A stretch of DNA of 64,000 bases from Streptomyces sp. NBC_01788 (GTDB lineage Bacteria > Actinomycetota > Actinomycetes > Streptomycetales > Streptomycetaceae). The DNA is taken from positions 6,014,001 to 6,078,000 of the forward strand of contig NZ_CP109090.1 in the NCBI RefSeq assembly GCF_035917575.1, read 5' to 3'. Below, one piece after another: positions 5,861 through 25,401 of the stretch. How positions within the stretch are numbered: the first letter of the stretch is position 1; each line of letters begins with the position of its first letter. The notes under the pieces were generated by a model that did no database searches, was not told where the DNA came from, and was given only the letters and a program-made list of their open reading frames with translations. A program made the translations under genes and the position numbers.

Positions 5861-7487
5861 GGCGGCCGCCGTCGGCGCGCAGCCGGAACCGCTGGAGCTT
5901 CCCGGTGGCCGTGCGCGGCAGCGCGTCCAGGAAGACGATCTCGCGCGGGCACTTGTACGGAGCCAGCTCCGACTTGAGGTACGCGCGCAGCGCCTCCGCG
6001 TCCCGCCGAGCGCCCTGCCGCAGGACGGCGTAGGCGACCACGACCTGCCCGCGGTCCTCGTCCGGCCGCCCGACGACCGCCGTCTCCACCACGTCCGGGT
6101 GGCGCAGCAGCGCGTCCTCGACCTCCGGACCGGCGATGTTGTACCCGGCCGAGATGATCATGTCGTCGGCGCGGGCGACGTAGCGGAAGTAGCCGTCGGG
6201 CTCGCGGACGTAGGTGTCGCCGGTGACGTTCCAGCCGTCCCGCACGTACACGCGCTGCCGGGGATCGGCGAGGTAGCGGCAGCCGACCGGACCCTGGACG
6301 GCGAGCAGCCCCGGGACCCCGTCCGGCACAGGCTCACCGTGCGCGTCCTGCACGCGCGCGTGCCACCCCGGTACGGGAAACCCGGTCGTGCCGGGCCGGA
6401 TGTCCTCGTCCGCCGCCGAGATGAAGATGTGCAGCAGCTCGGTGGCGCCGATGCCGTTGACGATGCGCACTCCGGTCCGCTCGTGCCAGGCGTGCCAGGT
6501 GGCCGCGGGCAGGTTCTCCCCGGCGGACACGCAGCGCCGCAGCGAGGAGACGTCGTACGCGCCGAGTTCGTCGAGCATCGCGCGGTAGGCGGTGGGGGCG
6601 GTGAACAGCACGGACACCCGGTGCTCGGCGATCGCGGGCAACAGCTGCCGCGGGTGGGCCTGTTCGAGCAGGAGCGCACAGGCGCCGGCCCGCATCGGGA
6701 AGACCACGAGCCCGCCGAGCCCGAAGGTGAAACCGAGCGGGGGACTGCCCGCGAACACGTCGTCCGCGCGCGGTCCGAGCACATGGCGGGAGAAGGTGTC
6801 CGCGACGGCCAGCACGTCCCGGTGGAAGTGCACGCAGCCCTTGGGCCGCCCGGTGGTGCCCGAGGTGAACGCGATGAGCGCGACGTCGTCGGCGGCGGTG
6901 TCCACGGCCGGGTACGGCGTGCCGGGCACCGCACGGCGCAGCAGGTCGTCGGGGCCTTCGCCGCCGTAGGTCGTGACGACGAGACCCGGTATCCCCGCCT
7001 TGGCCAGGTCGTCCACGGCCCGGATGTCGCACAGCGCGTGCCGGACCCGGGCGATCTCGCAGATCGTGCTCAGCTCGTGCGGGCGCTGCTGGGCCAGCAC
7101 GGTGACGGCGACCGCGCCCGCCTTGAGCACGGCCAGCCAGCAGGCCGCCAGCCAGGGGGTGGTGGGGCCGCGCAGCAGCACCCGGTTGCCGGGGACCACA
7201 CCGAGGTCGCCGGTCAGCACGTGCGCGATGCGGTCGACGCGGGCGCGCAGGTCGCCGTAGGTCCACGTCTCCCCGGCGGCGGTACGGAACACCGGGCGCC
7301 CGGCGTCGGTGCGGTCCAGCAGCTCGGCGGCGCAGTTGAGCCGGTCCGGGTAGCGCAGCTCCGGGAGGTCGAAGCGGAGTTCGGGCCACTGGTCCGGGGG
7401 CGGCAGGTGGTCGCGCGCGAAGGTGTCCACGTGCGCGGAGGCCGTCGGCCGCGCGGTGCCGCCCCTGCCGGAGTCCACGGTGTCCAT
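5856..7487 (-). CDS. Aryl-CoA ligase (AMP-forming), likely 2-aminobenzoate-CoA ligase
   Basis: Cytoplasmic adenylate-forming enzyme (543 aa) that activates an aromatic acid to its CoA thioester with ATP. Motifs: P-loop-like AFTSGTTGRPKGCVHFHR (about 175-192), GIGATELLH, the Y-x-x-GD equivalent WNVTGDTY, RADDMIISAGYNIAGPEVE and the C-terminal lysine in RTATGKLQRFR. The N-terminal stretch SAHVDTFARDHLPP followed by PDRLNCAAELLD is, from memory, characteristic of the 2-aminobenzoate-CoA ligase branch within benzoate-CoA ligases. ATG 7487 is chosen because AAGGGGG lies about 9 nt upstream; an upstream ATG at 7553 would run through the promoter. It is divergent from the acyl-CoA dehydrogenase. Substrate assignment is inference from branch and neighbourhood. 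Confidence 0.8.
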   Translation of the reverse strand: MDTVDSGRGGTARPTASAHVDTFARDHLPPPDQWPELRFDLPELRYPDRLNCAAELLDRTDAGRPVFRTAAGETWTYGDLRARVDRIAHVLTGDLGVVPGNRVLLRGPTTPWLAACWLAVLKAGAVAVTVLAQQRPHELSTICEIARVRHALCDIRAVDDLAKAGIPGLVVTTYGGEGPDDLLRRAVPGTPYPAVDTAADDVALIAFTSGTTGRPKGCVHFHRDVLAVADTFSRHVLGPRADDVFAGSPPLGFTFGLGGLVVFPMRAGACALLLEQAHPRQLLPAIAEHRVSVLFTAPTAYRAMLDELGAYDVSSLRRCVSAGENLPAATWHAWHERTGVRIVNGIGATELLHIFISAADEDIRPGTTGFPVPGWHARVQDAHGEPVPDGVPGLLAVQGPVGCRYLADPRQRVYVRDGWNVTGDTYVREPDGYFRYVARADDMIISAGYNIAGPEVEDALLRHPDVVETAVVGRPDEDRGQVVVAYAVLRQGARRDAEALRAYLKSELAPYKCPREIVFLDALPRTATGKLQRFRLRADGGRR

Positions 7488-16476: not shown

Positions 16477-17079
16477 GTGCGGGTTCCCACCACCGAGCGG
16501 CGGCTACAAATCATCGAAGCGGCTGTTGAGCTGATGCGGCGCAACGGCGTCGACCAGGTCACGCTGCGCGCCATCGCGCAACAGGCGGGTGCGCCGCTCG
16601 CCACGCTCCACTACTGCTTCCGCGACAAGGACGAGCTGATGCGCGCGGCGGCCGATCACTGGCTCGAACGCTTCGTCCACGACCCGGTCCCCGACGAGGT
16701 TCCGCTGGAGGGCGGTCTACGGGCGGTCATGGACCGGATCTCGGCCGCGTTCTGGACGCTGATCGAGACCACTCCGGCCGACCTGCGAGCCCAGATCGAA
16801 CTGGTCACCTGGGCCGTACGGGACGGAACGCACCCGGCGCTCGCCGAGTCGATGTACTCGCGCTACGAGGTGACGCTCGGCGACGTGTTCGCCCGGGCGC
16901 TGGACGCTGCGGGCCAGCGCTCCGAGGTCGACCCCCGGGTGTTGGCGCGCGGCTACATCGCCGCGGTGGACGGCGCGGTCCTCCAGCACATCTCGGAGCC
17001 CGCCTCTCCCCGCCCACGTGAGGTGTTCGACCTCATGGTGGAGGCGCTGCTGCTGCGGGCGGGCATCATCGAACGGTGA
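16477..17079 (+). CDS. TetR/AcrR-family transcriptional regulator
   Basis: 200-residue cytoplasmic regulator. The N-terminal helix-turn-helix is clear: RRLQIIEAAVELMRRNGVDQ, VTLRAIAQQAGAPLATLHYC and FRDKDELMRAA; the remaining 140 residues form the ligand-binding helical domain (BetI-like in general appearance). GTG 16477 is chosen because AAGGAACGAGG lies just upstream; a GTG at 16438 is in frame but has no SD. It is divergent from the TorT-type importer operon and is the obvious candidate repressor for it. The ligand would be the imported compound or its aldehyde. Confidence 0.8.
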   Translation: MRVPTTERRLQIIEAAVELMRRNGVDQVTLRAIAQQAGAPLATLHYCFRDKDELMRAAADHWLERFVHDPVPDEVPLEGGLRAVMDRISAAFWTLIETTPADLRAQIELVTWAVRDGTHPALAESMYSRYEVTLGDVFARALDAAGQRSEVDPRVLARGYIAAVDGAVLQHISEPASPRPREVFDLMVEALLLRAGIIER

Positions 17080-18043
17080 CGGTCCGGGTGGTGCGGACGG
17101 CTGGTCGGCCGTACCCGGCGACGGCCGGGAAGGCCGATCGCGGAGCGCGGTCGACGGCTACCGCAAGGCCGTGCGCCGGCAGCCGACACTGCCGGTGCGC
17201 GGGCCGTGGCGGCAACTCCACCACGTCGTGGACGTAGGCGTGCGCGGCGCCGGCGGCGATGTCCGATCCTGTGGCGGCTTGTGTCCGCGGTCGCTACTCG
17301 CTAGCTCATCAGCATCGGAACGGAAGCGACGCGGAGCTGGAAGAAGCGGTTGGAGAAGGACCTCGGTCCCACCTCCATCGAGGCCGACGTGATCGCCCCG
17401 TTGGAGGAGAGCGCCTCGGGCGGAGCCCTCGCGAGAGCACGGCTACCACGCCCTGCGTCATTTCCACGCCTCTCCCGGAAGAGACCAGGCGGCCCCGTGA
17501 CCTGCCGCGATGGGTGGTCGCGGGACGCTGACCCGGGGACCGGAGCGTCGGGCGGGCGATGAAGCACTGAGCGGGCGGCCGACCGAGCCCCGGCATCGAG
17601 CAACGACGGGTCGGCTCACCGTGGCATCTGACGACCTTGCTGAAGGTGCCGGCGGGCAGTCCCTCGCCGAGTTTCGCTCGGCGTCGCACGCAACGCCTTC
17701 CAACGCGCCGGGCTGTGTGCAGCCGACCGCACGCCTCACCGCAGCTCCGCAGACGGCCTGTGGCCGGCTGCCGAAACCACCGCACGCGTGGGAGCTAGGC
17801 AGCGTTGGGTCGCGCGCCACGCATGCCCGAGGCGGGCCCCTGTACATCCTCGGCCAGGAAGATCTCACCTTCCCCGAAGTCCGGCGCCCGGAAGGGGTTT
17901 GTCGCCGGAGGGGGCGATGCTGCAGTGGAACAGCCGGGTTGGTCTTCCAGGGCGGAGAACAGCGACGTCACATCGATGAGGGGCCTCCCTTTCGTCGCAG
18001 GTCCCTGAGGGGGCCTGGCGTGCCGTGGCCGGGCACAGTGGTC
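17080..18043. other. 964-bp region with no supportable gene
   Basis: All frames here give low-complexity, Arg/Pro-rich translations without recognisable domains, and base composition at codon positions is not consistently gene-like. It may hold decayed genes. It separates the TorT-type cluster from the rpoA/Tudor pair and could mark an insertion or deletion boundary. Confidence 0.5.
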
Positions 18044-18265
18044 CTACAGCTTGGTCATCTTGGCGTACGGGCTCAGGATCCGCATTTGCGCCGAGCCGAA
18101 ATCCACGAGCGCCGCGATTCCGTCCTCGATGCCGATCACCCGGCCGAGGCCGTACACGTCGTGCGTGACCTGGTCGCCCACGGCGAAGTGCTTGGGAGGC
18201 GGCGCGACCGGGGCCTTGAAGGGGCTGGTGGGCAAATGACGCTTCGGTGCAGCAGGCTTTGTCAT
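18044..18265 (-). CDS. Small stand-alone Tudor/CarD-like domain protein, PcrA/UvrD C-terminal type
   Basis: 73-residue basic protein: a lysine/proline-rich N-terminal tail (first 24 residues) followed by one small beta-barrel domain reading FAVGDQVTHDVYGLGRVIGI and then ALVDFGSAQMRILSP. This resembles the C-terminal Tudor-like domain of PcrA/UvrD helicases (GDRV-HDKYGLG...DFGS...RYAPV-KL) and, more distantly, the RNA-polymerase-interacting domain of CarD/TRCF. Both known domains contact RNA polymerase. Similar small proteins occur, from memory, widely in Streptomyces without assigned function. ATG 18265 has a close purine run (GGGGGCG). It is divergent from rpoA at 18483. RNAP binding is inferred from the fold only. 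Confidence 0.65.
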   Translation of the reverse strand: MTKPAAPKRHLPTSPFKAPVAPPPKHFAVGDQVTHDVYGLGRVIGIEDGIAALVDFGSAQMRILSPYAKMTKL

Positions 18266-18387
18266 CGCCCCCAGTATGCACCTACGAACCGCGCTGGTGG
18301 CCGACACCCTGCGGTAGGAGGAGCTGATCATCGCCCTCCACTCCGCGAGAGCTGAGCCCGCCGACCGGTCGGCAGACGGGCGGGGTC

Positions 18388-18421
18388 GGGCGGTTCGGCC
18401 TCGCAGGCGGCCGAACCGCCC
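18388..18421. terminator. Hairpin upstream of rpoA copy
   Basis: 13-bp perfect stem GGGCGGTTCGGCC / GGCCGAACCGCCC, 8-nt loop, ending 61 nt before the rpoA start. It has terminator shape but no gene ends just before it on the plus strand, so it may insulate rpoA, act in the leader, or be a leftover of a rearrangement. Confidence 0.5.
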
Positions 18422-18482
18422 GTATCCTTCGTGGTGTCTACGGCGTCACATGGCGGGCGCCAAACACTGGAGGCAATACCCC

Positions 18483-19499
18483 GTGCTGATCGCTCAGCGT
18501 CCCTCGTTGACCGAAGAGGTCGTCGACGAGTTCCGGTCCCGGTTCGTGATCGAGCCGCTGGAGCCGGGCTTCGGCTACACCCTCGGCAACTCCCTTCGCC
18601 GTACCCTCCTGTCGTCGATTCCCGGTGCCGCTGTCACCAGCATCCGCATCGACGGTGTCCTGCACGAGTTCACCACCGTGCCGGGCGTCAAGGAGGACGT
18701 CACCGACCTCATCCTCAACATCAAGCAGCTGGTCGTCTCCTCGGAGCACGACGAGCCGGTCGTGATGTACCTGCGCAAGCAGGGCCCGGGTCTGGTCACC
18801 GCCGCCGACATCGCGCCGCCGGCCGGTGTCGAGGTGCACAACCCGGACCTCGTCCTCGCCACGCTCAACGGCAAGGGCAAGCTGGAGATGGAGCTGACCG
18901 TCGAGCGCGGTCGCGGTTACGTCTCCGCCGTGCAGAACAAGCAGGTCGGTCAGGAGATCGGCCGTATCCCGGTCGACTCGATCTACTCGCCGGTGCTCAA
19001 GGTCACGTACAAGGTCGAGGCCACGCGTGTCGAGCAGCGTACCGACTTCGACAAGCTGATCGTCGACGTCGAGACCAAGCAGGCCATGCGTCCGCGTGAC
19101 GCCATGGCGTCCGCCGGTAAGACCTTGGTGGAGCTGTTCGGTCTGGCCCGCGAGCTCAACATCGACGCCGAGGGCATCGACATGGGTCCGTCCCCGACGG
19201 ACGCCGCCCTGGCCGCCGACCTGGCGCTGCCGATCGAGGAGCTGGAGCTCACGGTCCGCTCCTACAACTGCCTCAAGCGTGAGGGCGTCCACTCCGTGGG
19301 CGAGCTCCTGGCGCGTTCCGAGGCGGACCTGCTGGACATCCGCAACTTCGGTGCGAAGTCCATCGACGAGGTCAAGGCGAAGCTGGCCGGCATGGGCCTG
19401 GCCCTGAAGGACAGCCCGCCCGGATTCGACCCGACCGCCGCCGCCTTCGACGCGGACGACAACGGGAACACGGGTTTCGTGGAGCCCGAGCAGTACTGA
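18483..19499 (+). CDS. rpoA: DNA-directed RNA polymerase alpha subunit, apparently an extra copy
   Basis: 338-residue alpha subunit, full length. The N-terminal domain carries the dimer and beta/beta'-contact regions ([37 protein letters not shown]). The C-terminal domain keeps the DNA/activator residues: [16 protein letters not shown] includes the equivalents of E. coli R265, N268 and C269, and NFGAKSIDE the G296/K298/S299 positions. From memory it is nearly identical to streptomycete RpoA apart from the far C-terminal tail. Codons include many CGT/GGT, as in highly expressed genes. Normally rpoA lies between rpsD and rplQ; no ribosomal gene occurs anywhere in this window, so this is a relocated or second copy. 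GTG 18483 has GGAGG 9 nt upstream; a strong terminator follows. Confidence 0.95.
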
Positions 19500-19510: not shown

Positions 19511-19550
19511 GGCCTGCGGGGAGCCGGCCACGGCCGGCTCCCCGCAGGCC
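19511..19550 (+). terminator. rpoA terminator
   Basis: 19-bp perfect inverted repeat GGCCTGCGGGGAGCCGGCC separated by AC, 11 nt after the rpoA stop. Confidence 0.9.
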
Positions 19551-19688
19551 CCCCGGCGGAGAAGCGGTGCACCACACCACGCGGACCCCTCCGGTGCCGC
19601 GGCCATCCCGGACTCACTCCTTCGCGACTCGACGCCGGTTCGGAAAACCGCTCGACCGGCCGAGTCGGAGTCGTCATGATCCGCACTC

Positions 19689-20402
19689 GTGACGACTCCG
19701 AAGCAACTCCCGGTCAGCGTCGGCGCCCGCAACAACGCTGAGTGGTGCGCAGCGATGAGCCGATCGCACGGCTTGGCCGGCGAGTTCGGGGCACAGGCTT
19801 GGGCCGCCCCGTCCCGCACACCGCTCTACTACCCTGACGCGGTGACGCTGGTGCCGGGAGCCGACCGGACCGCGCTGGCGGCCCGGATAGACACCACCGC
19901 ACCCGGCGCCAGCGTGAAGGACAGTTTCGCCGACCTCGACCTGACGGGGATCGGTTTCCAGGTGTTGTTCGAGGCGCAGTGGATCCACCACCCGGCAAGT
20001 CCGCCCGCTCCCGCGTCGGACCTCGCCTGGGCCGTGGCGGACGCCCCGGACAGGCTGCGCGCCTGGGCGCTCGCCTGGGACGACGGGGACGGCAACACGG
20101 ACCTCTTCCAGCCCGGACTGCTCGAAGACCCCACCACTTTCGTGCTCACCGGACACTCCACCGATGGCCAAGTGGTCGCCGGCGCAGTGGCGAGCCACAG
20201 CCACCACGTGGTCGGGATCTCCAATCTATTCGCGCTGGACGGCGGCCCCGACGCGGCCTGGCCGGTGGTACTGGACGCCGTACACAGCCTGTTCCCCACC
20301 TTGCCGGTGGTCGGCTACGAGCAGGGTGACGACCTGGCGGCAGCCATCCGCCACGGCTTCGAGCCGGTCGGTCCACTGCGGATCTGGCTGCACGGCCGGT
20401 AA
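19689..20402 (+). CDS. GNAT-like hypothetical protein
   Basis: 237 residues, cytoplasmic. The first 110 residues look like a divergent acyltransferase N-terminal half (RNNAEWCAAMSRSHGL, LYYPDAVTLVPG), and the C-terminal part TFVLTGHSTDGQVVAGAVAS, VVGISNLFAL and HGFEPVGPLRIWLHGR resembles the last strands of a GNAT fold (FEPVGPLRIW as the FxxxG ending). The acetyl-CoA loop (R/QxxGxG/A) is not obvious, so activity is uncertain. GTG 19689 lacks a good SD; ATG 19755 is an alternative. The gene lies between the rpoA copy and a transposase remnant. Similar single genes occur in Streptomyces; substrate unknown. Confidence 0.6.
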   Translation: MTTPKQLPVSVGARNNAEWCAAMSRSHGLAGEFGAQAWAAPSRTPLYYPDAVTLVPGADRTALAARIDTTAPGASVKDSFADLDLTGIGFQVLFEAQWIHHPASPPAPASDLAWAVADAPDRLRAWALAWDDGDGNTDLFQPGLLEDPTTFVLTGHSTDGQVVAGAVASHSHHVVGISNLFALDGGPDAAWPVVLDAVHSLFPTLPVVGYEQGDDLAAAIRHGFEPVGPLRIWLHGR

Positions 20403-20573: not shown

Positions 20574-22103
20574 TCAGATGTCCCGGAACGTCTCGATCTG
20601 CGCCCCGATCGAGTTCAGTCGCTCCGCCAGGTCCTCGTAGCCGCGGTTGATGACGTAGACGTTGCGCAGGACCGACGTGCCCTCCGCGGCCATCATGGCC
20701 AGGAGGACGACCACGGCGGGGCGCAGGGCCGGTGGGCACATCATCTCGGCTGCGCGCCAGCGGGTGGGGCCTTCGACCAGGACCCGGTGGGGGTCGAGGA
20801 GTTGCAGGCGGCCGCCCAGGCGGTTCAGGTCCGTCAGGTAGATCGCGCGGTTGTCGTAGACCCAGTCGTGGATCAGTGTCTTGCCCTGCGCGGCGGCCGC
20901 GATCGCCGCGAAGAACGGGACGTTGTCGATGTTCAGGCCCGGGAACGGCATCGGGTGGATCTTGTCGATCGGCGCCTCCAGCTTGGAGGGCCGTACGGTG
21001 AGGTCCACCAGCCGGGTGCGGCCGTTGTCGGCGAAGTACTCGGGCGTGCGGTCGTGGTCCAGGCCCATCTCCTCCAGGACCGCGAGCTCGATCTCCAGGA
21101 ACTCGATCGGCACCCGGCGCACCGTCAGCTCCGACTCGGTGACCACGGCGGCCGCCACCAGGCTCATCGCCTCCACCGGGTCCTCGGAGGGCGAGTAGTC
21201 GACGTCGACGTCGATCTCCGGCACACCGTGCACGGTGAGCGTCGTCGTGCCGATGCCCTCGACCCTGACGCCGACCACCTCCAGGAAGAAGCACAGGTCC
21301 TGGACCATGTAGTTGGAGGAGGCGTTGCGGATGACCGTCACGCCGTTGTGGCGGGCCGCCGCCAGCAGCGCGTTCTCGGTCACGGTGTCGCCGCGCTCGG
21401 TCAGCACGATCGGGCGGTCCGGGCGGACGGCGTGGTCCACCACGGCGTGGTACTGGCCCTCGGTCGCGGTGATGTCCAGACCGAACCGGCGCAGCGCGAT
21501 CATGTGCGGCTCGATGGTCCGCGTACCGAGGTCGCAACCGCCCGCGTAGGGCAGCTTGAACTGGTCCACCCGGTGCAGCAGCGGCCCGAGGAACATGATG
21601 ATGGACCGCGTGCGGCGGGCGGCCTCGGCGTCGATGGCGTCCAGGTCGAGGTCGGCCGTCGGCACGATCTCCAGGTCGGTGCCGTCGTTGATCCAGCGGG
21701 TGCGCACGCCGATGGAGTTCAGCACCTCCAGCAGGCGGTACACCTCCTCGATCCTGGCGACCCGGCGCAGCACCGTGCGCCCCTTGTTGAGCAGCGAGGC
21801 GCACAGCAGCGCCACGCACGCGTTCTTGCTCGTCTTCACGTCGATCGCGCCGGAGAGCCGGCGGCCGCCCACCACCCGAAGGTGCATGGGGCCCGCGTAG
21901 CCCAGCGAGACGATCTCGCTGTCCAGGGCTTCACCGATGCGGGCGATCATCTCAAGGCTGATGTTCTGGTTGCCCCGCTCGACGCGATTGACGGCGCTCT
22001 GACTGGTGCCGAGTGCCTCGGCCAGCTGTGCCTGCGTCCAGCCCCGGTGCTGTCGGGCGTCACGGATGAGCTTGCCGATGCGTACGAGGTAGTCGTCTGC
22101 CAT
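20574..22103 (-). CDS. murA: XRE-type HTH fused to UDP-N-acetylglucosamine 1-carboxyvinyltransferase (MurA-like)
   Basis: 509-residue fusion. Residues 1-70 are a Cro/CI-type helix-turn-helix (IGKLIRDARQHRGWTQAQLA, LGTSQSAVNRVERGNQNIS); residues 72-509 are an EPT-family MurA domain (LRVVGGRRLSGAIDVKTSKN, and the loop YAGGCDLGTRTIEPH in which the cysteine corresponds to the phosphoenolpyruvate/fosfomycin-reactive Cys115). MurA catalyses the first committed step of peptidoglycan precursor synthesis. The fused architecture is conserved in streptomycetes (SCO5998, from memory) and may represent a second MurA or a DNA-binding sensor. A palindrome ATCTC-N6-GAGAT lies 13 bp upstream of the start. It is divergent from acnA. 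Confidence 0.85.
   Translation of the reverse strand: MADDYLVRIGKLIRDARQHRGWTQAQLAEALGTSQSAVNRVERGNQNISLEMIARIGEALDSEIVSLGYAGPMHLRVVGGRRLSGAIDVKTSKNACVALLCASLLNKGRTVLRRVARIEEVYRLLEVLNSIGVRTRWINDGTDLEIVPTADLDLDAIDAEAARRTRSIIMFLGPLLHRVDQFKLPYAGGCDLGTRTIEPHMIALRRFGLDITATEGQYHAVVDHAVRPDRPIVLTERGDTVTENALLAAARHNGVTVIRNASSNYMVQDLCFFLEVVGVRVEGIGTTTLTVHGVPEIDVDVDYSPSEDPVEAMSLVAAAVVTESELTVRRVPIEFLEIELAVLEEMGLDHDRTPEYFADNGRTRLVDLTVRPSKLEAPIDKIHPMPFPGLNIDNVPFFAAIAAAAQGKTLIHDWVYDNRAIYLTDLNRLGGRLQLLDPHRVLVEGPTRWRAAEMMCPPALRPAVVVLLAMMAAEGTSVLRNVYVINRGYEDLAERLNSIGAQIETFRDI

Positions 22104-22668: not shown

Positions 22669-25401
<2,733 letters not shown>

Follow-up and report, generated by a model that had tools for sequence, protein, structure and literature searches.

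The window analysed here is a stretch of 64,000 nucleotides from Streptomyces sp. NBC_01788, and it contains a complete gene for the alpha subunit of RNA polymerase, hereafter rpoA2 (Table 1). Scores above the equivalog cut-offs of NF003514 (655 bits, cut-off 434) and TIGR02027 (380 bits, cut-off 227.8) over the full length of the gene identified it as a bacterial rpoA, consistent with the original prediction of an intact rpoA outside the ribosomal operon. The positions of the alpha C-terminal domain (CTD) that we take to contact DNA, named by E. coli numbering (R265, N268, C269, G296, K298, S299 and E302), were all present as predicted, and the gene indeed has its own Shine-Dalgarno sequence. 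An in-frame ATG at 18450 was set aside as the start codon because this Shine-Dalgarno sequence fits the start at 18483. Further upstream, the hexamer TATCCT may function as a promoter element; TAnnnT is a weak consensus. The proposed 19-bp terminator was recovered in part: a perfect 19-nt inverted repeat begins 12 bases past the stop codon, with an RNA fold z score of −7.4, but it lacks a T run and is terminator-like only.

Table 1 Features of the rpoA2 locus, in window positions
Feature	Position	Strand	Description
Inverted repeat	18387..18422	+	perfect, 14 nt; directly upstream of the -10-like hexamer
TATCCT	18423..18428	+	-10-like hexamer (TAnnnT); same place as CGTACCCT, which extra and ribosomal-operon leaders share
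Leader hairpin motif	18441..18462	+	CGGCG-TCACATGGCGGG-CGCCA; related to the ribosomal-operon rpoA hairpin GGGCG-TCAAATAGYGGG-CGCCC
Shine-Dalgarno GGAGG	18469..18473	+	ends 9 bases before the GTG start of rpoA2
rpoA2	18483..19499	+	complete alpha subunit gene, 338 aa, GTG start
Terminator-like inverted repeat	19511..19550	+	perfect, 19 nt (arms 19511-19529/19532-19550); no T run
74-aa protein gene	18044..18268	-	stand-alone UvrD1-type Tudor / CarD-RID-like protein; divergent from rpoA2

The "gene desert" described beside rpoA2 is a gap of about 1 kb between a TetR gene (ending at 17079) and the gene of the 74-aa protein. A transposase remnant had also been placed next door; Pfam detected no transposase in six ORFs (five within 17018–17868 and one at 19674–20207), positions 17080–18040 gave no match to plasmid records, and the remnant was not confirmed; a shorter one may be present. 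Among the scanned neighbours are genes for an aconitase, a MurA-like and a GH92 enzyme, and the near ones are metabolic and regulatory. The MurA-like gene (20574–22103, minus strand) encodes a fusion of an N-terminal helix-turn-helix with an EPSP-synthase-family enzyme (PF01381 plus PF00275) and is divergent from the aconitase gene at 22669. Aconitase/IRE regulation of rpoA2, from which the aconitase gene lies about 3 kb away, was rejected: in the available text of PMC3912134, the alpha subunit is listed only among the indirectly affected proteins, those without an IRE.

The 74-aa protein gave Pfam matches below cut-off to PF02559 (E 8.5e-4) and PF21196 (E 0.016), and its sequence matched the Tudor domain of Mycobacterium smegmatis UvrD1 (PDB 9dqs, E 5.5e-6). 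Its AlphaFold model has a mean pLDDT of 81, with block means of 89–93 over residues 31–74, and the best PDB match of the model is again 9dqs (E 2.7e-4), indicating a predicted Tudor fold. The same fold forms the C-terminal Tudor domain of UvrD/PcrA, which binds RNA polymerase according to the available text of PMC8318588 and PMC7585439. Unlike that domain, the window protein stands alone at 74 aa, without a helicase; it is probably a free RNA-polymerase-binding domain. The protein has 443 homologues; the names among the best 120 of these 443 are mostly Streptomyces, and some homologues are annotated as CarD family regulator or ATP-binding protein.

The genome was assembled as a single contig of 8,269,445 bases and is 100% complete. 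It contains one further rpoA (start C1:4691523) and one rpoB, with no second rpoB. The further rpoA lies in the ribosomal operon, in the context map ... rpsM-rpsK-rpoA-rplQ-truA; gene names were read there from ORFs of at least 100 aa, a list for which infA and rpmJ are too short. We call the ribosomal-operon rpoA "resident" and any full-length rpoA without rplQ or rpsK neighbours "extra". Because a resident is present in the same genome, rpoA2 is an additional and not a relocated gene, as had been proposed. Of the ribosomal neighbours described as lacking, rplQ is indeed not alongside, and neither is rpsK; the leader and start of the gene have GGAGG and GTG instead of GAAGG and ATG. Alignment of the two copies, suggested originally as a check, showed identity at 991 of 1017 aligned nucleotides, with 26 substitutions and a 6-nt gap. 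Fourteen codons differ silently and 10 with a changed residue (resident first: the start, V56I, I269V, V276L and six in the tail), giving 97% amino-acid identity. The expected difference in the C-terminal tail is thus real, the rpoA2 tail being two residues shorter in addition to its six changes, and the N-terminal domain (NTD) differs, apart from the start residue, at V56I only.

A pair of this kind might be suspected of being an assembly artefact, since in some draft relatives contigs are broken or fused within rpoA and one contig, that of G166, has an N inside the gene. We give this explanation almost no credence: the window genome is a single complete contig whose two copies differ in their flanks as well as by the substitutions and gap listed above, and the leader of the window copy, its divergent Tudor neighbour and the spacer recur in other species.

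The rpoA2 family is found beside the Tudor gene on the chromosome, in chromosome arms and on plasmids. A single rpoA, described as normal in streptomycetes, is the rule for the majority, but full-length extras occur in at least 59 of 392 Streptomyces genomes (15%) and on Streptomyces plasmids too. Two or more rpoA matches at E ≤ 1e-40 were obtained in 79 of the 392 genomes, some of which reflect a gene cut in two at the end of a contig; 59 of the 79 yielded full-length extras, and the remaining 20 were not retrieved or are interrupted at contig ends. A PLSDB search matched rpoA in 40 plasmid records, 21 of them from Streptomyces, and our plasmid counts rest on nine of these 21 (a tenth was read and stands outside the counts). 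The collection of 74 extras therefore comprises nine from plasmids and 65 from the 59 genomes, the 65 being partly non-independent, with two each in G166, G199, G229, G236, G278 and G412. The two extras of G278 (L135 and L179) have identical coding sequences and mirror positions, each 0.61 Mb from a contig end, and perhaps lie inside long terminal inverted repeats. On contigs with the resident rpoA in the middle half (6 of 38 were unusable), a contig end lay within 2 Mb of 20 of the 27 extras found elsewhere than at the Tudor site, versus none of the five found at it. Six annotated records among the nine plasmids showed varied neighbours, including some transposases and toxin-antitoxin genes, and no constant partner. 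A perfect downstream stem of at least 10 was present at only 13 of the 74 extras.

The Tudor gene is divergent within 450 bp at 12 of the 74 extras, including the window and the distant lineages G093 and G314, and the spacer between the two genes is homologous in most of these 12 loci. Across the 74 extra loci no constant neighbour besides the Tudor gene was found, two families occurring at 4–6 loci in variable places, in a survey by a rough GC3 gene caller that missed some Tudor genes found by the linkage search. The link between the Tudor gene and rpoA2 is suggestive only, because the Tudor gene is also present in 27 of 36 other Streptomyces genomes examined and the exact rpoA2 leader strings are absent from 29 Tudor-gene loci (~3 kb each) other than that of the window. 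The regions by the Tudor gene in relatives were too variable to define an ancestral empty site.

Comparison of the leaders separated extras from residents. GGAGG precedes 70 of 74 extras versus GAAGG in 82 of 88 residents, and the start codon is GTG in 58/74 and ATG in 87/88, respectively; a typical extra leader reads CCGTACCCTTCGTGGTGTCTACGGCGTCACATAGCGGGCGCCAAACACTGGAGGCAATACCTC-GTG, and a typical resident leader ends GTCGGGCGTCAAATAGCGGGCGCCCACGACTGAAGGATCTGATCCACAC-ATG. CG-TAnnnT is present in both groups (60/74 and 87/88). For 69 of the 74 extras the best leader match was the extra of another genome and no resident, and the mean leader score of extras was 13.6 to the own resident, 13.3 to residents generally and 35.1 between extras. 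Reciprocally, 85 of 88 residents matched a resident best. The three exceptions matched an extra best, for G000 and G412 via converted extras; one of the three, the resident of the window genome, had its best match in the converted G261 leader. A resident-type leader, or a switch within the leader, was observed on the extras of G261 and G279 and on one of the two in G412. GGAGG is also carried by the residents of G008, G093, G031 and G309 and by all five outgroup copies, and for this reason the extra-type leader looks ancestral; the duplication may be older than the leader change in the main line.

These leaders bear on the simplest account of the locus, a recent rpoA duplication in a single strain, or redundant DNA being lost, with no special history. 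The 97% amino-acid identity and the sister position of rpoA2 to its own resident in the tree described below agree with such an origin. However, the leader, Shine-Dalgarno sequence, start codon and neighbour of rpoA2 match the extras of other species and not its own resident, and the extras as a group show purifying selection (see below), so that we regard a recent duplication as improbable.

The resident leader forms a hairpin with the loop TCAAATAGYGGG in 82 of 88 cases, and all five pairs form in 87/88. Its inner pair is G-C in 64 and A-T in 24, counted without a shuffle control; such paired changes suggest an RNA element, and the hairpin is a candidate autoregulatory RNA. In the locus L003, a hairpin GGGCR-TCAAATAGYGGG-YGCCC lies ~18–46 bases upstream of the ribosomal-operon rpoA (start 8524). 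Among extras the commonest loop is TCACATAGCGGG (23/74); all five pairs form in 25/74, and the hairpin is degenerate in many. When the window genome was scanned for the motif with 0–1 mismatch, the two rpoA leaders alone matched, and the hairpin may be an rpoA-specific control element. A role as a genome-wide regulatory site was discarded, matches with up to 3 mismatches being at control level (48 vs 42). Searching the window leader against Rfam gave chance-level matches only, below gathering scores. Nor was unusual RNA stability of the short leader supported (z 0.41); the 102 nt including the upstream inverted repeat folded with z −3.0. The resident rpoA of S. coelicolor, SCO4729, is among the most highly expressed genes in the available text of PMC4895711.

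The coding bodies gave a different grouping. We compared codons 2–308 of each extra with those of the 88 residents, and 45 of the 65 extras had the resident of their own host as the closest of the 88, where chance would give 0.7. In G166 the supposed resident (L176) is a chimeric contig that combines rplQ and an extra-type leader with an N within rpoA; without genome G166 the count was 43 of 63. L176 was dropped from the clustered-identity test and kept among the 88 in the body, leader, hairpin, dN/dS and residue counts. In 20 of 65 extras the own resident was not the closest, G288, G347, G115 and G309 being among those that look imported, and a foreign extra was at least as near as the own resident for 23 of 65. 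The window copy and its own resident were sisters in a tree of 167 coding sequences (SH-aLRT 96), in which many other extras likewise paired with theirs. The excess of identity to the own over other residents was 1.9–5.7 points per 25-codon block across codons 1–300, with peaks at codons 26–50 and 101–225, and was nil or nearly nil beyond codon 300. Clustered identity was detected at p<0.01 in 43 of 63 own pairs versus 9 of 63 mismatched pairs, and at p<0.05 in 48 versus 22; the 9/63 and 22/63 of the controls mark the test as poorly calibrated. The longest identical run was 814 nt (G404), and the window pair taken alone showed no significant clustered tract (p 0.22).

Further supporting exchange within hosts, a tree uniting 13 Tudor-linked extras in one clade was rejected (AU p 2.84e-5, lnL 366.6 lower). 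This test leaves out G261, whose leader is converted, and takes in G276 and G412 although their Tudor genes are 3.7 and 1.8 kb off and the G276 spacer is not clearly homologous. Starred support for joining by host was obtained in nine of the 13 pairs (100/98 for the window pair), and the other four did not resolve. A site shared between species together with host-specific bodies points to gene conversion; it is far less likely that independent duplications entered one site, each with the same leader. At the level of the family, bodies thus group by host, and leader and site by locus, as in concerted evolution, and rpoA2 is best described as an old duplicate whose coding body is homogenised with the resident. 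Across the family, the comparisons indicate that this homogenisation extends to about codon 300, and that the leader and usually the tail remain the gene's own. The G404 resident, alone among the 88, carries the extra-type V269 and L276; together with the leaders of G261, G279 and G412, this hints that conversion also runs from extra to resident, with traffic in both directions.

We then considered selection. Between extras and their own residents, dN/dS was 0.084 for the NTD, 0.117 for the CTD and 0.170 for the tail, and mean NTD dN was 0.009 over the 65 pairs. Between residents (300 random pairs), the corresponding ratios were 0.035, 0.005 and 0.037. By these ratios the extras show purifying selection, relaxed compared with residents because their values exceed those between residents; the ratio still shows selection though conversion lowers both dN and dS counts. 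The CTD contact residues are kept in all 74 extras, save K298 in 73 (one K298R), and the extra of one relative (G266) has an internal stop codon. Selection and the intact contact residues together suggest that the rpoA2 product is a working alpha subunit.

The 3' end of the gene raises the question of specialisation. V269 occurs in 59 of 74 extras versus 1 of 88 residents and L276 in 32 versus 1; G307 recurs in 36 of the 74, and residues 321 and 322 are lost in 36 and 37. These differences, with a two-residue tail deletion in about half of the extras, persist despite conversion upstream, and might mean that V269/L276 and the altered tail shift the activator response, so that a polymerase containing the second alpha prefers other promoters. 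But these are conservative changes at positions other than the tested DNA-contact residues, some of them may remain just because conversion seldom reaches the 3' end, and the tails vary among extras. Specialisation of this kind is therefore a tentative reading, which we consider possible and on balance doubtful. Some actinomycetes duplicate other RNA polymerase subunits for drug resistance, and the many relatives of rpoA2 on plasmids and in arms would also suit a resistance or decoy gene that counters an RNA polymerase inhibitor or an alpha-targeting phage protein. The unchanged CTD contact residues, the lack of a second rpoB and the absence of a resistance-type gene among the scanned neighbours (aconitase, MurA-like and GH92 enzymes among them) speak against that role, and the toxin-antitoxin or transposase genes near some plasmid copies form no constant partner; we consider it quite improbable.

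Collectively, our analysis favours with good confidence that rpoA2 is an old, accessory, free-standing second rpoA of Streptomyces with its own leader and a converted body, which would provide a second supply of alpha. In the mechanism we envisage, rpoA2 would form a single-gene transcription unit with a promoter of its own, and its product would join the RNA polymerase pool as a working alpha. The cell would then have two separately controlled alpha sources, slightly different in the CTD core and tail. Ectopic homologous recombination, that is gene conversion, would hold the assembly domain identical to that of the host, and an often mobile gene would thereby stay compatible with its host. 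The benefit is most likely the second, separately controlled supply itself, any change at the alpha C-terminus being subtle at most; the mixed RNA polymerases originally envisaged are plausible. A bolder possibility, which we judge unlikely, is that rpoA2 is a mobile RNA-polymerase remodelling gene: it would create a distinct polymerase population under its own leader, perhaps with the Tudor protein, while conversion tailors the assembly domain to each host and leaves the C-terminal part and leader element-specific. If so, a core polymerase subunit would be moving horizontally and be continually re-fitted by recombination.

Duplicate essential genes held alike by gene conversion have a precedent in tufA/tufB of enteric bacteria, whose concerted evolution resembles that of rpoA and rpoA2. 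In contrast to tufA/tufB, only a minority of genomes carry rpoA2, which is located also in arms and on plasmids and has a separate leader. Duplicate rpoA genes are reported for S. avermitilis, Francisella, Chloroflexus and two others in the available text of PMC3294249. According to the same text, Francisella resembles the window genome in having two rpoA genes (rpoA1/rpoA2), one of them outside the ribosomal operon, but its copies are diverged, subfunctionalised and mainly form a heterodimer. The Streptomyces NTDs are instead almost identical and kept so by apparent conversion, the second gene is accessory and mobile, and the window pair does not show the diverged NTD dimer and beta/beta' interfaces of the Francisella type. 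In the open-licence PMC literature, we found two rpoA genes in Streptomyces for S. avermitilis only, though a report may exist elsewhere, and did not find the spread, plasmid carriage, separate leader or concerted evolution of rpoA2 in print. The S. avermitilis pair is called a fairly recent duplication in the available part of PMC3294249. Its second rpoA probably belongs to the same gene family as rpoA2; it is treated there as an isolated recent duplication, whereas rpoA2 here is a scattered, partly plasmid-borne family. The apparent youth of a second rpoA can stem from conversion.

A core RNA polymerase subunit is normally single-copy and treated as a vertical marker. Conversion between copies would blur rpoA as a phylogenetic marker in Streptomyces, and would bring arm or plasmid sequence within reach of an essential gene. 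The rpoA2 family offers a ready natural system for the role of a second alpha in antibiotic-producing bacteria. Near-identical copies can also break draft assemblies, and an rpoA from a draft can be chimeric. Among the drafts in our set, L176 (G166) is broken or fused inside rpoA near 6897, and contig ends fall inside the gene in G032, G108, G121, G319 and G343.
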